From Bacillota bacterium (GTDB lineage: Bacteria; Bacillota; Clostridia; Caldicoprobacterales; DTU083): DNA of 33,270 bases. This document shows, piece by piece, positions 561 through 9,490 of this stretch; position 1 is the first letter of the stretch; every line of letters begins with the position of its first letter. The notes below the pieces were generated by a model. The model ran no database searches. It saw only the letters and a program-made list of their open reading frames with translations, and was not told the DNA's origin. The stretch spans positions 1 through 33,270 of the forward strand of contig JAKORJ010000114.1 of the NCBI GenBank assembly GCA_029777885.1. Reading direction: 5' to 3'. The position numbers and the translations under genes were made by a program.

Positions 561-2660
561 TTACATTACGCTGTTCAGGATCTCCGCATAGGTCGGGATC
601 TTCCAATGCTCGCTGCTTACCAGCGTTTCAAGCTCATCAACGATCAGCCTGAGCTCGTTCATGGCCGCAAACACCCTTTCCCGGTATGCCCTGGCCAGCG
701 CAAGGCTGTCCTTTATCTCCCTGACCTCTATGGTCTGCTCGTACAGGTGATCCAGCCTGGTTTTCAGGCATTCTGACAGCCTGGATATTTTTTTCAGCAG
801 CTCTTCCTCAAGGCTTGTTGGGATCTCGGCACTTATTGCCTTCTTCTGAATTATCAGGTCTGCCAGTTCTTTCTGATAGCCCAGTACAGCAGGGATGATC
901 AGCTTGTTGACCATGTCGATCATCGTCAGAGCTTCGATGTTGATGGTCTTCGAGTAGTTTTCGAGCAGGATCTCATATCGCGAGTAAATCTCGTTTTTGG
1001 TAAAGACCTTATGGCGGATGAACATCTCCACATTTTTAGGATTGATTAGTGCCGGCAAGGCTTCGGGTGTGGTTCTCAGGTTGTGCAAGCCCCTAAGCTC
1101 CGCTTCCTTAACCCAGGCTGAGTCATAGCCGTTCCCGTTGAAGATGATGCGCTTGTGATTCTTGATGGTCGTCTTGATCAGCTTGTTCAAGTCCTTATTG
1201 AAATCAGTGCTCTTTTCAAGTACGTCAGCGAACTGGGACAGCACTTCAGCCACGATTGTATTGAGGACTATTATTGGTTCGGCTGTTGATAAGGCTGAAC
1301 CCAGCATGCGGAACTCAAACTTATTACCTGTGAATGCAAAGGGGGATGTCCGGTTGCGGTCTGTCGTATCCTTCGGAAAAGGGGGAAGCACCGTTGCGCC
1401 GATTTCCATCAAGGTTTTTCCCTTGCCATTATACAAGGTATCGTTTTCCAGGGCTTTAAGGATCTCGGTTAGCTCATCGCCCAAAAACATTGATACGATG
1501 GCCGGGGGTGCTTCATTGGCTCCAAGGCGGTGATCATTGCCCGCGCTTGCTACCGAGACCCGCAAAAGGTCCTGATACTCATCCACAGCTTTGATCACTG
1601 CCACAAGGAAAAGGAGAAACTGCGCATTTTCACAGGGCGTATCGCCTGGCTCCAACAGATTGATCCCAGTATCCGTGGACATGGACCAGTTGATATGCTT
1701 TCCGCTGCCGTTTACTCCTGCAAAGGGCTTTTCATGCAGGAGGCAGGCCAGGTTATGCTTTGCCGCGATGCTTTTCATAAGCTCCATTACCAGTTGGTTG
1801 TGGTCTGTAGCTATATTGGCTTCAGAGTAGATGGGGGCAAGCTCATGCTGGGAAGGGGCCACCTCGTTATGCTCGGTCTTGGCCAGTACGCCCAGCTTCC
1901 ACAGTTCCTCATCCAGCTCGCGCATGAAAGCTGAAACCCGTTGCTTAATTGCCCCAAAGTAATGGTCCTCCATTTCCTGGCTCTTTGGCGGCCTTGCACC
2001 AAACAAGGTCCTGCCACAGTATATAAGGTCAGGCCTTTTCAGGAACATGTCCTTGTCGATTAAAAAGTATTCCTGCTCAGGGCCTACTGAGGAAAGGACC
2101 CGCTTTGCATCAGTGACCCCGAACAAGCGGAGGATACGCAGAGCCTGGTGGCTGAGCGCCTGCATGGAACGCAGCAGGGGCGTTTTCTTGTCCAGGGCCT
2201 CGCCGCTGTATGAGCAGAAGGCTGTTGGGATATATAGCGTGTTATCTTTTATAAAGGCATAGGACGTCGGGTCCCAGGCAGTATATCCCCTGGCTTCGAA
2301 AGTGGTGCGCAGTCCGCCCGAAGGGAAGCTGGAGGCGTCGGGTTCGCCTTTGACCAGGGAGTTGCCCGAAAACTCCATAATGACCCTGCCGTTGCCGTCA
2401 GGAGCTATAAAGCTGTCATGCTTTTCAGCCGTTACGCCTGTCATGGGTTGGAACCAGTGGGTGAAATGGGTAGCGCCCTTTTCTATCGCCCAGTCCTTCA
2501 TGGCGCACGCGACTACATTAGCCACTTCCAATTCAAGGGGTGTGCCATCTGCGATCGTTTTCTTTAGTGCATTGTAAATGTGCTTCGGCAGGCGTTCCTT
2601 CATGACGGCTTCATTGAATACCATACTGCCGAATATATCAGATATTTTATTACTTGTCAC
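561..2660 (-). CDS. glnN: Glutamine synthetase type III
   Basis: 699 aa; GSIII features ([61 protein letters not shown]); GTG start after AAGGAGG. Confidence 0.95.
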
Positions 2661-2673
2661 TTTCCTTTCCTCC

Positions 2674-3681
2674 TTACAACAATTCTATTCCTGCTTCTCT
2701 GCAGCCTGTAATGGTGCTTTGGTCCCACACCGAGACCTGGACCTCGCCGATGTGCGCCTTCTGCAGCAGGAGCATGCACAGCCTCGATTGGCCTATCCCG
2801 CCGCCCATGGTAAGCGGGAGCTCGTCATTCAGCAGCATCCTGTGGAACAGCAGATTGCGGCGGTCATCACATCCTGCCTTGCTTAGCTGCTCATCCAAGG
2901 ATTCCTTGTCGACCCGTATGCCCATGGAGGATACTTCAAAAGCACACCCCAGGATGTCATTCCAGAAGAGGATATCGCCGTTGAGCTTCCAGTCGTCATA
3001 ATCAGGCGCCCTCCCATCATGCTTGATGCCTGATTTCAGCAAATCACCTATCTGCATGATGAAGGCGGTCTTATGGTCCTTTAAATACTTGTCTTCACGC
3101 TCCTTTGGCGAAAGAGCAGGATACATATCCTCAAGCTCCTGGGTCGTTACAAAGGAGACTTCTCGTGATAGTTCAACCGAAAGCACCGGGTACAGCTTCT
3201 TTATATCCTCAAGGGTATCGCAAATAGCGCCGACGATTTTGACCACGGTGCTTTTCAGGGTTTCCAGGTTCCTGGTGTCACGGTCGATGACCTTCTCCCA
3301 GTCCCATTGGTCGACATAGATCGAGTGCAGATTATCCATATCTTCATCGCGGCGTATGGCGTTCATATCAGTGTAGATCCCTTCCCCTACAGGGAAACCA
3401 TACTTGTGCAGGGCTAAACGCTTCCACTTCGCAAGCGAGTGGACGACCTGGGCTTGGTAACCGTCTTCCTTGATATTGAATTCCACGGGCCGCTCTATAC
3501 CGTTTAGGTCATCGTTGATACCGGTGTTGGCCAGGACGAACAATGGGGCCGATACTCTTTTCAGGTTCAATGCCTTGCTGAGATTGTCCTCAAAGATTCT
3601 CTTTATTTTTCCTATTGCACTTTGGGTATCATAAAGGTTCAATAGCGGCCTGTATCCTTTAGGCACTGTCAGCTTGCTCAT
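2674..3681 (-). CDS. asnA: Aspartate--ammonia ligase (asparagine synthetase A)
   Basis: 335 aa; class II synthetase-like; [32 protein letters not shown] and [14 protein letters not shown] typical of AsnA; 13 bp from glnN, likely one transcript. Confidence 0.95.
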
Positions 3682-3700: not shown

Positions 3701-3749
3701 AAAATAAAAAAGAAAAGGTGCCGCGGAACATAAGTTCCACAGCACCTTT
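3701..3749 (-). terminator. Leader terminator (attenuator) in front of asnA
   Basis: Minus strand AAAGGTGCTGTGGAAC-TTAT-GTTCCGCGGCACCTTT (16 bp with two G-U pairs) followed by TCTTTTTTATTTT, between promoter and asnA ribosome-binding site. Confidence 0.85.
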
Positions 3750-3755
3750 GCTGCA
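3738..3755 (-). promoter_or_regulatory. ANTAR-type hexaloop hairpin in the asnA leader
   Basis: TGCAGC-[AAAGGT]-GCTGTG, hexaloop with A1 and G4, overlapping the 5' arm of the leader terminator. Confidence 0.6.
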
Positions 3756-3762
3756 TGTAAAA

Positions 3763-3791
3763 AGTATAGCATCGGATCATTTGGATGTCAA
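3763..3791 (-). promoter_or_regulatory. Sigma-A-type promoter of asnA-glnN
   Basis: Minus strand TTGACA - 17 bp - TATACT. Confidence 0.85.
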
Positions 3792-3926: not shown

Positions 3927-3955
3927 TTGACACTTATATTGGTTTATAGTACCAT
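3927..3955 (+). promoter_or_regulatory. Sigma-A-type promoter of the glutamate synthase/glnA operon
   Basis: TTGACA - 17 bp - TACCAT. Confidence 0.65.
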
Positions 3956-3962
3956 AATTAGT

Positions 3963-3980
3963 GTGAACAAAGGCGTTCAT
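3963..3980 (+). promoter_or_regulatory. ANTAR-type hexaloop hairpin in the glutamate synthase leader
   Basis: GTGAAC-[AAAGGC]-GTTCAT, hexaloop with A1 and G4, overlapping the 5' arm of a long downstream hairpin. Confidence 0.6.
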
Positions 3981-4056
3981 CAGATAGTATCAGGCAACGA
4001 GCCAGGATGGCTTGTAGCCGCTTTTCAGGTACTATGTGATGAGCGCCTTATTTTAT
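3970..4056 (+). terminator. Long leader hairpin, possible attenuator
   Basis: AAGGCGTTCATCAGATAGTAT pairs with GTACTATGTGATGAGCGCCTT (one mismatch, two wobbles), nested hairpin GGCAACGAGCC-AGGAT-GGCTTGTAGCC, then ATTTTAT. Confidence 0.6.
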
Positions 4057-4072
4057 GACAGGAGGCAGGCCA

Positions 4073-5161
4073 GTGAGGGAAGGGATGTTCCGCAATCCAT
4101 CAGGATGCGCCATATCAGGTATCTTTTCAAAGTCCGGAAAGCGCTTTTCCGGCAAACGGATAATAGACTCCATAGCTGTGATGCATGAGCGTTCCAACGG
4201 GCTTGGAGGAGGCTTTGCAGCCTACGGGATCTATCCTGAATACAAGGATCATTATGCCTTTCACATATTTTATGATGACATATATGCCAAAAAGGAATGC
4301 GAGGAGTATCTGGAGGACCATTTTGACATAGCCAGCTTGTCACAGATCCCTACGCGCAAGATACCGGAAATCACAGATACACCTTTGATTTGGCGATATT
4401 TTGCTGCTCCGCTTCCGGCGAAGCTGGCTGACAGCCAGCTGGATGAGCGGGAGTATGTGGTCAGGTGCGTGTTCAGGATAAATACAGCGATTAAAGGCGC
4501 ATATGTCTTTTCCAGTGGAAAGAATATGGGCGTGTTCAAAGCAGTGGGCTTCCCTGAGGACGTAGGCCGATTCTACCGGCTGGAGGAATATGAAGGATAC
4601 TGCTTTATAGCCCATGGTAGGTACCCAACGAACACTCCCGGCTGGTGGGGCGGTGCCCATCCCTTTGCGCTCCTTGATTTTTCAGTTGTCCACAACGGCG
4701 AGATATCATCTTACGATGCGAACCGCCGCTCCATAGAAATGCACGGTTACAAATGCACCCTGCAGACAGACACCGAGGTCATTGCCTATATCATCGACTA
4801 CCTGCACAGGAAGCAGTGGCTTAACCTGAATGAAATATGCTCAGTCATTGCCGCGCCCTTCTGGTCAGTCATAGAGACCAGGCCACGTGAAGATAGGGAA
4901 GAGCTCGAGTATTTAAGATGCGTTTTTGATTCACTGCTGATCAACGGGCCTTTTTCAATAATCGTAGGCTTCGAAGGTGGGATGATGGCGCTTAATGACA
5001 GGCTTAAGCTCCGCAGCATGGTGGTGGGGGAGAAGGATGATATGGTCTACGTTGCAAGCGAGGAGGCTGCCATCAGGGTCATACAGAAGGATCTTGACAG
5101 GGTGTGGTCACCCAAGGGCGGCGAAGGAGTCATAGTAACTATAGAGAAAGGATCGGCATAA
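4073..5161 (+). CDS. Glutamate synthase GATase subunit (class II glutamine amidotransferase), stand-alone
   Basis: Near-N-terminal Cys in CAISGIF, HGRYPTNTPGWWGGAHPFALLDFSVVHNGEISSYDANRR; GTG 4073 has AGGAGG 7 bp upstream, better than the ORF-track ATG at 4055. Confidence 0.85.
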   Translation: MREGMFRNPSGCAISGIFSKSGKRFSGKRIIDSIAVMHERSNGLGGGFAAYGIYPEYKDHYAFHIFYDDIYAKKECEEYLEDHFDIASLSQIPTRKIPEITDTPLIWRYFAAPLPAKLADSQLDEREYVVRCVFRINTAIKGAYVFSSGKNMGVFKAVGFPEDVGRFYRLEEYEGYCFIAHGRYPTNTPGWWGGAHPFALLDFSVVHNGEISSYDANRRSIEMHGYKCTLQTDTEVIAYIIDYLHRKQWLNLNEICSVIAAPFWSVIETRPREDREELEYLRCVFDSLLINGPFSIIVGFEGGMMALNDRLKLRSMVVGEKDDMVYVASEEAAIRVIQKDLDRVWSPKGGEGVIVTIEKGSA

Positions 5162-6666
5162 TGGCTGCTTTTGATATATATCCGGAATATGAAATAGTAA
5201 GGAATAATGAACGGTGCACCAACTGCCGGGTGTGTGAAAAGCAATGCGCAAACGGGGCACATATATTCCTGACTGACAAAAACAGGATGGCTGCTGATGA
5301 TGCCAAATGCGTAAACTGCCACAGGTGTGTGGCTATGTGTCCTGTAAGAGCTTTGAAGATCGTGAAAACCGATCACACCTTCAGAGAAAATTCATACTGG
5401 ACCGGCAAAAGCATAAAGGAGATCAACAGGCAGGCAGAAAGCGGGGGCGTCCTTTTATCCAGCATGGGCAACCCGGAAACCTATCCCGTATACTTTGATA
5501 GAATACTGCTAAATGCGTCCCAGGTCACTAACCCATCCATCGACCCTTTGAGGGAGCCCATGGAAACCAGGGTCTATCTGGGGTCAAAGCCAGAAAAGGT
5601 CGTAAGGGATGAGAAGGGCCGCATTAAGGTCGACCTACCGCCGCATATCATGCTGTCCATACCTGTCATGCTGTCGGCCATGAGCTATGGATCGATCAGC
5701 TATAACGCCCATGAAAGCCTGGCGAGGGCTGCCGCAGAAGCCGGCATCTTATATAATACCGGGGAGGGCGGCTTGCACGAAAACCTATATAACTATGGCA
5801 GTAACACGATCGTTCAGGTTGCATCAGGGCGTTTTGGAGTGCACAAGAAGTACTTAAGCAGTGGAGCCGCTATCGAGATCAAAATGGGACAGGGCGCAAA
5901 GCCTGGTATCGGTGGGCACCTGCCCGGTACTAAGATCGTGGGTGACATTTCTAAGACCCGTATGATCCCTGAGGGCTCCGATGCCATATCTCCGGCCCCT
6001 CACCACGATATTTACTCCATTGAAGACCTGAGCCAGCTCATATATTCGCTAAAGGAGGCAACAGGCTATTCAAAGCCCATAATAGTCAAGATCGCAGCCG
6101 TCCACAATGTCGCTGCGATCGCCAGTGGCATTGCCCGAAGCGGCGCTGACATTATTGCCATTGACGGCTTCAGGGGCGGCACGGGCGCTGCGCCTACACG
6201 GATACGCGATCATGTGGGCATCCCGATTGAGCTGGCCTTGGCCAGCGTTGATAATCGGCTGTGCGATGAAGGGATCCGTAATCGGGTGTCGATCGTGGCC
6301 GGAGGGGGCATCCGTTCCAGCGCTGATGTTGTCAAGGCAATAGCGCTTGGCGCTGATTGCGTATATATAGGTACTGCAGCCCTCATTGCCCTGGGCTGCC
6401 ACTTATGCCGGAGCTGTCATACCGGCAAATGCAACTGGGGAATAGCCACCCAGAGGGAGGACCTGATGAAACGTTTGAACCCTGACTGGGGATACAAAAG
6501 GCTGGTGAACCTCTTGAATGCCTGGAAGCATGAAATAATGGAAATGATGGGCGGCATGGGCATAAACGCCATAGAAAGCCTAAGAGGCAACCGGCTTATG
6601 CTCCGTGGTGTAGGCTTAAATGAAAAAGAGCTTGAGATACTGGGCATCAAGCATGCGGGAGAATGA
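5161..6666 (+). CDS. Glutamate synthase FMN-binding subunit with N-terminal 2x[4Fe-4S] ferredoxin domain
   Basis: CTNCRVCEKQC and CVNCHRCVAMCP motifs followed by glutamate synthase core (MSYGSISYNAHESLARAAAEAG, GEGG, KMGQGAKPGIGGHLPGTK); ATG 5161 overlaps upstream stop region. Confidence 0.92.
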   Translation: MAAFDIYPEYEIVRNNERCTNCRVCEKQCANGAHIFLTDKNRMAADDAKCVNCHRCVAMCPVRALKIVKTDHTFRENSYWTGKSIKEINRQAESGGVLLSSMGNPETYPVYFDRILLNASQVTNPSIDPLREPMETRVYLGSKPEKVVRDEKGRIKVDLPPHIMLSIPVMLSAMSYGSISYNAHESLARAAAEAGILYNTGEGGLHENLYNYGSNTIVQVASGRFGVHKKYLSSGAAIEIKMGQGAKPGIGGHLPGTKIVGDISKTRMIPEGSDAISPAPHHDIYSIEDLSQLIYSLKEATGYSKPIIVKIAAVHNVAAIASGIARSGADIIAIDGFRGGTGAAPTRIRDHVGIPIELALASVDNRLCDEGIRNRVSIVAGGGIRSSADVVKAIALGADCVYIGTAALIALGCHLCRSCHTGKCNWGIATQREDLMKRLNPDWGYKRLVNLLNAWKHEIMEMMGGMGINAIESLRGNRLMLRGVGLNEKELEILGIKHAGE

Positions 6667-6717: not shown

Positions 6718-7434
6718 ATGAATGTATCAGCTCGCAGGCTGGGAAGCCGGGCGTTGAACGATGAAATAAGAAGGGCTGAAGAAGATATAATAATCGAAGA
6801 CTGCTTTGGTGAACGCTACATCGGGAGCGGTGCCTCATCCATTACAATAACGATAAACGGCACGCCGGGGAATGCCATGGGAGCCTACCTGGACGGGGCA
6901 ACCATTATAGTAAATGGCAATGCCCAGGATGCTATCGGAGATACTATGAATGACGGTAAGATAATAATACATGGCAATGCCGGTGATGCTCTAGGATATG
7001 CCATGCGGGGCGGGAAGATCTATGTGAAGGGTGATGCCGGGTACCGGACCGGCATCCATATGAAGGAGTATAAGGATAAAAGGCCGGTCATAGTAGTAGG
7101 CGGAAGCACAGGAAGCTTTCTAGGCGAATATCTCGCCGGTGGGATAATCATAGTTTTGGGTATGGAGTCTGAAGCCTTTCCTGTAGGTGACTTTACGGGG
7201 ACCGGCATGCATGGCGGCCTGATATTCATAAGGAGCAGCACACCTCCGGCCAAACTACACAAACAGGTGACTGTAAGCCTGGCAGACGACTCGGATATGG
7301 GATTTATAAACGAGTACCTGATGGAGTATGCGGATACTTTCGGGCTCAGCATCGATGAAATATTGCGCAAACCCTTTTATCGGCTTGCGCCGAACGCCAA
7401 AAATCCATACAAGCAGCTGTACACCATATACTAG
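6718..7434 (+). CDS. Glutamate synthase GXGXG-domain subunit
   Basis: 238 aa repeated beta-helix pattern (NAMGAYLDGATIIVNGNAQDAIGDTMNDGKIIIHGNAGDALGYAMRGGKIYVKGDAGYRTGIHMKEY). Confidence 0.9.
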   Translation: MNVSARRLGSRALNDEIRRAEEDIIIEDCFGERYIGSGASSITITINGTPGNAMGAYLDGATIIVNGNAQDAIGDTMNDGKIIIHGNAGDALGYAMRGGKIYVKGDAGYRTGIHMKEYKDKRPVIVVGGSTGSFLGEYLAGGIIIVLGMESEAFPVGDFTGTGMHGGLIFIRSSTPPAKLHKQVTVSLADDSDMGFINEYLMEYADTFGLSIDEILRKPFYRLAPNAKNPYKQLYTIY

Positions 7435-7448
7435 GAAGTTAAATTACA

Positions 7449-7577
7449 ATGAGTATAGGAAATTCGTGGCCTGAATCGGATGATATGAATGAGAATAACC
7501 GTTTTCAAGTGGATCTATGTGATGATAAAATGAACATAAATGCTTTATCGCTGGAAAAAGGAGGCTGGATGCTTTGA
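7449..7577 (+). CDS. Possible 42-aa microprotein between the GXGXG subunit and glnA
   Basis: ATG...TGA ORF MSIGNSWPESDDMNENNRFQVDLCDDKMNINALSLEKGGWML; AGGAAG upstream; its stop overlaps the TTG start of glnA. Confidence 0.4.
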   Translation: MSIGNSWPESDDMNENNRFQVDLCDDKMNINALSLEKGGWML

Positions 7578-8893
7578 ATCATACTGCCAGTGAAGTGCTG
7601 GAATTTGTCAGGGAAAACGATGTGAGGTTCATCTGGCTCAACTTCTGCGACCTGTTTGGAGCTCAGAAAAGGATCTCAATAATGGCTGATGAGCTGGAAT
7701 CTGCATTTGAGCACGGGGTGTCCTTCGACGCTCATGCTGTACAGGGGTTTAAGGATGTCACCCAGTCTGATCTGTTCCTCTATCCGGACCCTTCCACCTT
7801 GATGGTCATGCCATGGCGCCCCGGCCCGGGCAGGGTCGTACGTTTTTATTGCGACATAAGGAATCCCGATGGGTCAGTGTTCGCCAATGACAGCCGGTAT
7901 ATCCTGAAACAGGTCACCGGCAAATGCGAAGGCATGGGGTTTGTTTGCAAGATAGGGCCGGAGTGCGAGTTCTACCTTTTCAAGACCAATGAGGATGGCG
8001 AACCTACAGATACACCGCTCGACAGGGGAGGATATCTGGATATGCATCCTCTTGATATGGGCGGCGACATACGGCGTGAAATATGCCTTACACTTGATGA
8101 AATGGGTATAAAACCTGAGACCTCCCATCATGAACAAGGGCCCGGCCAGAACGAGATCGACTTCAAGTTCAGCGATGCACTCTCAAGCGCGGACAACCTG
8201 CAGACATTCAAGGCTGCTGTCAAATCCATAGCTGCCCGAAACGGCCTATACGCTTCCTTTATGCCAAAACCTATACCCGGTGCTCCGGGCAGCGGCATGC
8301 ATGTCAACATCTCCCTGGCCAAAAACGGGCTGAATGTTTTCAAGGATATCAAGGAAGGCCAATCAAATGCCGCTGAAAGCTTTATTGCTGGTATACTTGC
8401 GAGAATACCGGAGATAACCATTTTCCTGAATCCCATCGCCAACTCATATGAGCGTTTCGGAAAATTTGAAGCTCCGGCATATGTTTCATGGTCACACCAT
8501 AATCGCTCTCAGCTCATAAGGATACCCGCAGCTATCGGAGAAAAGGTAAGGATGGAGCTGCGCTCACCGGATCCCTCGATGAATCCTTATCTTGGGTTTG
8601 CACTTATCATAGCTGCGGGTCTGGAGGGGATAGAGAAGGGCATGGTCCTGCCTGCCGCTGCCAATGTGGATTTGTACAAGGCGGATGAAGCCTTGACGAA
8701 AACCTTGACACCACTGCCTTTGAGCATGGACGAGGCAGTAAGGCTTGCTGAGGTCAGTGATTTTGTAAAAGGCGTGATCGGTGACGAACTGCATTCCAAG
8801 TACATTGCTGCCAAAAAGAAAGAAGCAGGGGATTTCGCAGCTGCTGAAGATAAAATGGTATTTTACAAAAGAAAATATTTCGGAGTAATTTGA
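7574..8893 (+). CDS. glnA: Glutamine synthetase type I
   Basis: 439 aa; ENDVRFIWLNFCDLFG, GPECEFYLF, EQGPGQNEIDFKFSDAL, GSGMHVNISL, NPYLGFALIIAAGLEGI; TTG start after AAAGGAGG. Confidence 0.95.
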   Translation: MNHTASEVLEFVRENDVRFIWLNFCDLFGAQKRISIMADELESAFEHGVSFDAHAVQGFKDVTQSDLFLYPDPSTLMVMPWRPGPGRVVRFYCDIRNPDGSVFANDSRYILKQVTGKCEGMGFVCKIGPECEFYLFKTNEDGEPTDTPLDRGGYLDMHPLDMGGDIRREICLTLDEMGIKPETSHHEQGPGQNEIDFKFSDALSSADNLQTFKAAVKSIAARNGLYASFMPKPIPGAPGSGMHVNISLAKNGLNVFKDIKEGQSNAAESFIAGILARIPEITIFLNPIANSYERFGKFEAPAYVSWSHHNRSQLIRIPAAIGEKVRMELRSPDPSMNPYLGFALIIAAGLEGIEKGMVLPAAANVDLYKADEALTKTLTPLPLSMDEAVRLAEVSDFVKGVIGDELHSKYIAAKKKEAGDFAAAEDKMVFYKRKYFGVI

Positions 8894-8896
8894 TTT

Positions 8897-9490
8897 GTGG
8901 CGAAAGGCAGCACGGGTATGGAATACGTTTTGATAGTATCGAATTCAGAAAAAGGGGCGGCATTGATTTCTGAACTGCTTAACCCGGCGTCCGTCTGCCA
9001 GATCATTGCTGTCAAATCCTGCGGCGAAGCACGGAGACTCCTGCTGGAACGGGATTTCGATCTGGTGATCATCGATGCTCCGCTAAAGGACGAGACCGGC
9101 GAAAGCCTTGCTATGCATGCAGCCTCCAGGGAGATGACACAGGTCATCCTGATTGTAAGGCGGGAATTCTACGAAGCCGTGTCAGCTGTATGCGAAAGAG
9201 AAGGGGTACTGACTATTGAAAAGCCGGTCAATAGGTATATTTTCATGTCTGCGCTATCGCTTGCCCGATCAGTCTACAACAGGATGAAAAAGATACAGAC
9301 CGAAAACGCCCAACTGAAGAAAAGGATAGAAGATATACGCATTGTGGACCGCGCCAAGTGTATACTTATATCCCTGATGAGCATGAGCGAAAAGGAAGCC
9401 CACAGGTATATTGAAAAACAGGCGATGGATATGCGCATCACCAAAAGGGCGGTGGCTGAAAGGATTCTAAAAACCTATGAGGATTTATAA
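8897..9490 (+). CDS. ANTAR-domain antiterminator with degenerate receiver domain (NitR-like)
   Basis: 197 aa; receiver-like N-terminus, coiled coil, then RAKCILISLMSMSEKEAHRYIEKQAMDMRITKRAVAERIL (ANTAR); 3 bp after glnA. Confidence 0.85.
   Translation: MAKGSTGMEYVLIVSNSEKGAALISELLNPASVCQIIAVKSCGEARRLLLERDFDLVIIDAPLKDETGESLAMHAASREMTQVILIVRREFYEAVSAVCEREGVLTIEKPVNRYIFMSALSLARSVYNRMKKIQTENAQLKKRIEDIRIVDRAKCILISLMSMSEKEAHRYIEKQAMDMRITKRAVAERILKTYEDL

Follow-up and report, generated by a model that had tools for sequence, protein, structure and literature searches.

The window, by which we mean the whole 33,270-nt stretch of DNA analysed, carries two divergent transcripts. Three glutamate synthase subunit genes, glnA and an ANTAR gene lie on one strand 3' of the gltS leader, and asnA and glnN occupy the opposite strand behind a second leader. 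The features are as follows.

561-2660, minus strand: glnN, type III glutamine synthetase (Pfam GSIII_N).
2674-3681, minus strand: asnA, ammonia-dependent asparagine synthetase (Pfam AsnA).
3714-3749, minus strand: overlapping terminator of the asnA leader, followed by TCTTTTTTAT (terminator scan).
3738-3755 (read 3755-3738), minus strand: second hexaloop hairpin, TGCAGC-AAAGGT-GCTGTG (folding, motif scan).
3763-3791, minus strand: promoter TTGACA-17-TATACT of the divergent asnA-glnN transcript (consensus scan).
3927-3955, plus strand: sigma-70-type promoter TTGACA-17-TACCAT of the gltS-glnA-ANTAR transcript (sequence, consensus scan).
3963-3980, plus strand: 5'-terminal hexaloop hairpin, candidate ANTAR site and antiterminator (folding, covariation, conserved loop).
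3970-4056, plus strand: overlapping terminator hairpin and U-rich tail (folding; like layout in relatives).
4073-5161, plus strand: glutamate synthase class-II amidotransferase subunit, first gene of the operon (Pfam GATase_2).
5161-6666, plus strand: glutamate synthase catalytic subunit with ferredoxin domain (Pfam Glu_synthase).
6718-7434, plus strand: glutamate synthase GXGXG subunit (Pfam GXGXG).
7574-8893, plus strand: glnA, glutamine synthetase (Pfam Gln-synt_N and Gln-synt_C).
8897-9490, plus strand: ANTAR protein with a receiver-like N-terminal domain (Pfam ANTAR, 1.8e-15; RNA-contact residues).

In the gltS leader, the boxes TTGACA (3927-3932) and TACCAT (3950-3955) are separated by a 17-nt spacer. 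A gap of seven bases leads from TACCAT to a hairpin made of GTGAAC (3963-3968), the loop AAAGGC (3969-3974) and GTTCAT (3975-3980). A preliminary description had placed this succession at the predicted 5' end of the RNA, and every base of it is present. The foot of a predicted 80-nt terminator hairpin (3970-4049) consists of loop bases 2-6 together with the 3' arm; in this hairpin the 5' strand AAGGCGTTCATCAGATAGTAT (3970-3990) pairs with the 3' strand GTACTATGTGATGAGCGCCTT (4029-4049), an apical stem lying between them. The tail ATTTTAT (4050-4056) is followed by the SD sequence GGAGG (4061-4065) and by the GTG start at 4073. This large hairpin built on the loop and 3' arm had likewise been described, and folding reproduces it. 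The -10 match is mediocre and the U-tract imperfect.

The gltS terminator has a long apical stem (3981-4028), and because of this the terminator scan listed only the asnA terminator at the two leaders, the gltS hairpin missing from its output. The apical hairpin was considered as a second ANTAR hexaloop and rejected, since its loop does not have the AxxGxx hexaloop form and relatives have other sequences in its place. The flanking CAGATAGTA/GTACTATGTGAT stem is conserved between genera beyond the needs of a terminator. A timing delay or another contact may be the reason.

The asnA-glnN leader is built on the same plan, but its stem sequence differs. Its minus-strand boxes are TTGACA (3791-3786) and TATACT (3768-3763), and its terminator has 16 bp and a good U-tract. 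The occurrence of two AAAGGY switches in the window is not due to chance: in 400 first-order Markov shuffles of the window, AAAGGY switches arose 0.0075 times per shuffled window and switches with any AxxGxx loop 0.97 times, compared with two in the real window, both AAAGGY.

Nascent-chain folding of both window leaders predicts that the small hairpin forms first and the terminator afterwards; in the gltS leader, the hexaloop hairpin is displaced at about 90 nt of nascent RNA. The terminator fold is better than the best fold keeping the small hairpin by 17.4 and 14.4 kcal/mol in the two window leaders, and by a median of 14.1 kcal/mol over 123 leaders of the wider family. This energetic preference suggests that termination is the default and that the small hairpin needs something to hold it.

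That family was collected with a scan for hexaloop hairpins from which a terminator further downstream takes back the loop and the 3' arm. The scan covered 80 ANTAR-bearing loci from public genomes, mainly of Clostridia, together with Treponema, Fibrobacterota, Desulfobulbaceae and others. It returned AAAGGC 43 times and AAAGGT five times, and shuffled sequences gave no recurring loop of such kind. When any hexaloop with an upstream -10 box was admitted, AAAGGC was found 29 times, AAAGGT six, AAAGAC three and AATGGC two, all other loops occurring once. With the whole genomes of relatives added, the leaders total 123, a few of them doubtful scanner matches (for example L077:6326 and L106:4285). 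They precede gltS (35), glnN (25), asnA (10), glnA (9), gdh (9), asnB (6), amt (6), purC (5), purB (4), pyrG (4), purF (2) and a gltB-type gene (1), seven having no gene assignment; the names were confirmed for representatives with curated family models.

The genome of the window holds a third site, upstream of purB on another contig (C87; L162:855-913, minus strand). The purB product is 91% identical to that of the same genus over 223 amino acids, and the site ties adenylate synthesis to the nitrogen regulon. The expectation that a genome scan would reach amt and other nitrogen genes was borne out: it holds for purB in this genome and for amt and pyrG in the same genus, where leaders of both were found. 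A search of the window's own assembly found neither amt nor pyrG; as this assembly is about 91% complete, the genome may still encode them. In one relative (G009), a gltS-type leader lies directly 5' of glnA-ANTAR and the gltS genes are not in between. At L048:7576 (minus strand), a leader of this type is kept directly before glnA-ANTAR, with no gltS genes separating them, and a second leader just past the ANTAR gene drives gdh.

A plain pattern, AAAGGY...RCCTTWTT, gave 37 matches in the window's genome, the gltS site included. Of the 30 of these examined as loci, only two had even a short stem round the loop, and neither was leader-like. Since the pattern missed the asnA site, a covariance model of promoter and hairpin, with the terminator left out, was used instead. 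Across 65 leaders, five of the six stem pairs are altered on both sides, the closing C-G pair being invariant, and 90.8% of stem cells are paired as against 24-51% in slid controls. The preliminary description had remarked, for the asnA and gltS leaders, that the stems differ and the AAAGGY loop and geometry are kept; with such strong covariation, this is true over the 123 leaders. The stem follows the gene: leaders of glt, gln, asnB, pur and pyrG genes mostly have TGAAC, those of glnN and asnA have ACAGC or GCAGC, and those of gdh have TAAAC.

Among the top loci of the whole-genome model search, a few of which perhaps belong to training organisms and so are not strictly independent, a hairpin further downstream pairs with the 3' arm in 26 of 27 evaluable cases. 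Weak background matches of the model served as the control, and an overlapping terminator accompanied none of 21. They replaced a control with swapped downstream regions (overlap in 307 of 756), which is uninformative because many leaders have a common stem sequence.

The published ANTAR targets consist of tandem hexaloops, P1 and P2, separated in the E. faecalis eut leaders by a linker of 5-12 nt. EutV requires both hexaloops in vivo, and loss of either abolishes or reduces eutP induction (PMC3369931). In the leaders described here the loop opens with A and has G as its fourth base (AAAGGC, AAAGGT), the hexaloop overlaps the terminator and an ANTAR gene is present in the genome; the two tandem hairpins are lacking. 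Judged on these sequence features, the single-hexaloop leaders are a variant of ANTAR antitermination. That there is a single hexaloop instead of the published pair had been overlooked in the preliminary description.

It could be argued that these are classical dual-hexaloop targets after all, with a second hairpin of non-canonical form or one situated beyond the stretch scanned, as might happen if a promoter farther upstream gave a longer RNA. The ANTAR targets tested in the literature consulted are dual, and the order itself contains a sister family (G001, G002, G004; L175:8206, L172 at about 8780-8860 on the minus strand and L171 at about 1738-1830) in which clear dual leaders precede glnA. 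In these textbook cases GCGC-AATGGC-GCGC is followed by GTACTC-AACGGC-GAGTAC, and only the second hairpin overlaps the terminator; they offer a natural contrast of single and dual forms. We nevertheless regard a hidden second hairpin as unlikely, on three grounds. In most leaders the hairpin follows immediately after the -10 box: the distance from this box to the 5-bp stem in 66 leaders is usually 6-12 nt, with a mode of 8, so that the RNA, its start being deduced from the -10 box, would begin at the hairpin or a few bases away from it and leave no space for P1. A second AxxGxx hexaloop is found downstream in one of the 66 leaders, at or below the 5% expected by chance, and upstream in three of the 123, one of which is the true dual leader of G001 and another a tandem array. 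It is absent from both window leaders, and among the 27 evaluable top loci it occurs in only one, 93 nt off. Finally, asnA and most glnN leaders often leave only about 35 nt from the loop to the end of the terminator.

Two glnN leaders (L201:2560-2730, plus strand; L200:1290-1440, minus strand) each contain two full modules of hexaloop plus terminator, one after the other, at spacings of 61 and 90 nt. These read as repeated attenuators, not as a P1/P2 pair.

The structure of EutV with RNA indicates that the dimer contacts one hexaloop at a time. Walshe et al. (2022) proposed the single hexaloop as the minimal site, expected it where the polymerase sets no time limit, and explicitly asked that single hexaloops be studied both by bioinformatics and by experiment (PMC8934654). 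The single-hexaloop terminator leaders do not fit that expectation, because asnA and most glnN leaders allow only some 35 nt.

The covariance model was applied to 196 genomes of the class with a cut-off of E <= 0.001. It found matches in 51, namely 48 of the 100 genomes with an ANTAR gene and 3 of the 96 without (Fisher p = 4e-14, a value that overstates independence since the genomes are related), so that an ANTAR gene accompanies the motif in 48 of 51 cases. At the level of the order, seven of eight genomes with a match have an ANTAR gene. In dual leaders (G002, G004) the model picks up the first hairpin as well; the co-occurrence therefore concerns ANTAR hairpins in general and not the single form alone. 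Four genomes (G010, G070, G115, G213) carry the motif and yielded no convincing ANTAR gene even at loose thresholds, which may reflect assembly gaps; conversely, G016 has an ANTAR gene and lacks a strong motif match. A genome search of the window's assembly found exactly one ANTAR gene, that of the gltS-glnA gene string. The regulon under one ANTAR protein that had been postulated for the two window transcripts thus gains comparative support, from a motif that tracks ANTAR genes and from the single ANTAR gene in the operon. Because this only copy sits behind the gltS leader, its autoregulation through that leader is plausible.

The motif genomes in which an ANTAR gene went undetected would be accommodated if the attenuator were governed by another factor, either a different RNA-binding protein or a small molecule. 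Against this stand the strong co-occurrence, a loop that equals the A1/G4 consensus of ANTAR sites, and target genes that agree with known ANTAR themes. An Rfam search at gathering and relaxed thresholds gave chance snoRNA matches only and no riboswitch, and a 6-nt loop on a 5-bp stem would be very small for an aptamer. Control by a non-ANTAR factor therefore appears quite improbable. Hairpins at the 5' end can protect mRNA, and the small hairpin might be a mere stabilising stem-loop beside an incidental or constitutive downstream attenuator, but such a role requires neither a fixed loop nor a 3' arm shared with a terminator, both of which are kept across many families and some other phyla, and it has next to no likelihood.

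The regulator encoded in the window aligns with EutV across the ANTAR domain (PF03861, 1.8e-15). The EutV RNA contacts K149, E160 and Y164 (published numbering) correspond to K154, E165 and H169 in the window protein; among relatives, these are K in 84/84, E in 84/84 and H in 83/84 sequences. The positions of EutV K143 and K147 are occupied by basic residues, and that of R142, which is not conserved, by Ile. ANTAR domain and RNA contacts are thus both in place. The receiver-like domain lacks the features of a phosphorylatable receiver: the acidic pair is replaced by Ser and a variable residue, and the phospho-acceptor, Asp60 in the window protein, is Asn in 68 of 84 relatives. By its sequence it is probably a pseudo-receiver, which makes phosphorylation unlikely as the signal. 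The preliminary description had overlooked that the usual phosphorylation site is missing from the receiver of most relatives.

The ANTAR gene lies directly 3' of glnA in 75 of the 88 loci searched (85 with ANTAR detected), the window among them; this is the NitR-type arrangement. In Bacillus, GlnR and TnrA work with feedback-inhibited glutamine synthetase. By analogy, and given the position of the ANTAR gene after glnA, it is a reasonable guess that a signal other than phosphorylation passes through GlnA.

Taken together, the gltS leader very probably attenuates transcription as part of an ANTAR regulon and represents a type with a single hexaloop. Left to itself, the RNA of the leader would fold as the terminator and RNA polymerase would halt before gltS. 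An active ANTAR protein, made from the end of the same gene string, would grip the AAAGGC hexaloop as it emerges at the 5' end of the RNA, pinning the loop and the 3' arm in the small hairpin; the terminator stem would then be blocked and readthrough allowed. The same protein would act on the asnA-glnN transcript and on purB of its own genome, and its counterparts in relatives on amt, gdh, asnB, purC, purF and pyrG. The signal is presumably nitrogen or glutamine status, sensed probably without phosphorylation, perhaps via the neighbouring glutamine synthetase.

A wider scheme is possible rather than probable. It would join a widespread antitermination by ANTAR proteins at one 5'-end hexaloop, a phosphorylation-independent pseudo-receiver gated by glutamine synthetase, and a global glutamine and nitrogen regulon (glt, gln, asn, gdh, amt, pur and pyrG), spanning many clostridia as well as some other phyla. 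The target genes across the leaders are ammonium- or glutamine-linked, and the leaders outline a clostridial nitrogen regulon extending to purine, CTP and asparagine synthesis. The accepted ANTAR mechanism requires two hexaloops, and natural single-hexaloop terminators make the question of one or two directly testable. The literature searched, to which the older clostridial NitR papers do not belong, describes neither single-hexaloop terminator leaders nor the purine and CTP part of the regulon.

Among known systems, an ANTAR gene next to GS-GOGAT genes is shared with NitR of Clostridium acetobutylicum and with Clo1313_2030, which belongs to the glutamate synthase cluster of C. thermocellum. 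For these, antitermination of ammonium assimilation genes has been proposed (PMC4676874); the literature searched on these proteins, the original NitR papers lying beyond it, gives no RNA target element. AmiR of Pseudomonas aeruginosa is a pseudo-receiver ANTAR protein as well, with His at the position of EutV Tyr164, but it serves a single operon, whose hairpin is dual, and responds by way of AmiC. The leaders resemble the dual-hexaloop targets eutP/G/S/A, nasF and amiE (Ramesh et al. 2012, PMC3369931) in the A1/G4 hexaloop on a short stem, the overlap with a terminator, the nitrogen genes downstream and the ANTAR gene in the genome. Unlike these, they have one hexaloop, with no P1 and no linker, and the hexaloop stands at the 5' end of the transcript and is itself the element that overlaps the terminator. 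With the proposal of Walshe et al. (2022; PMC8934654) they share the single hexaloop as the minimal binding unit, whereas the single sites described here lie on terminators of nascent transcripts.
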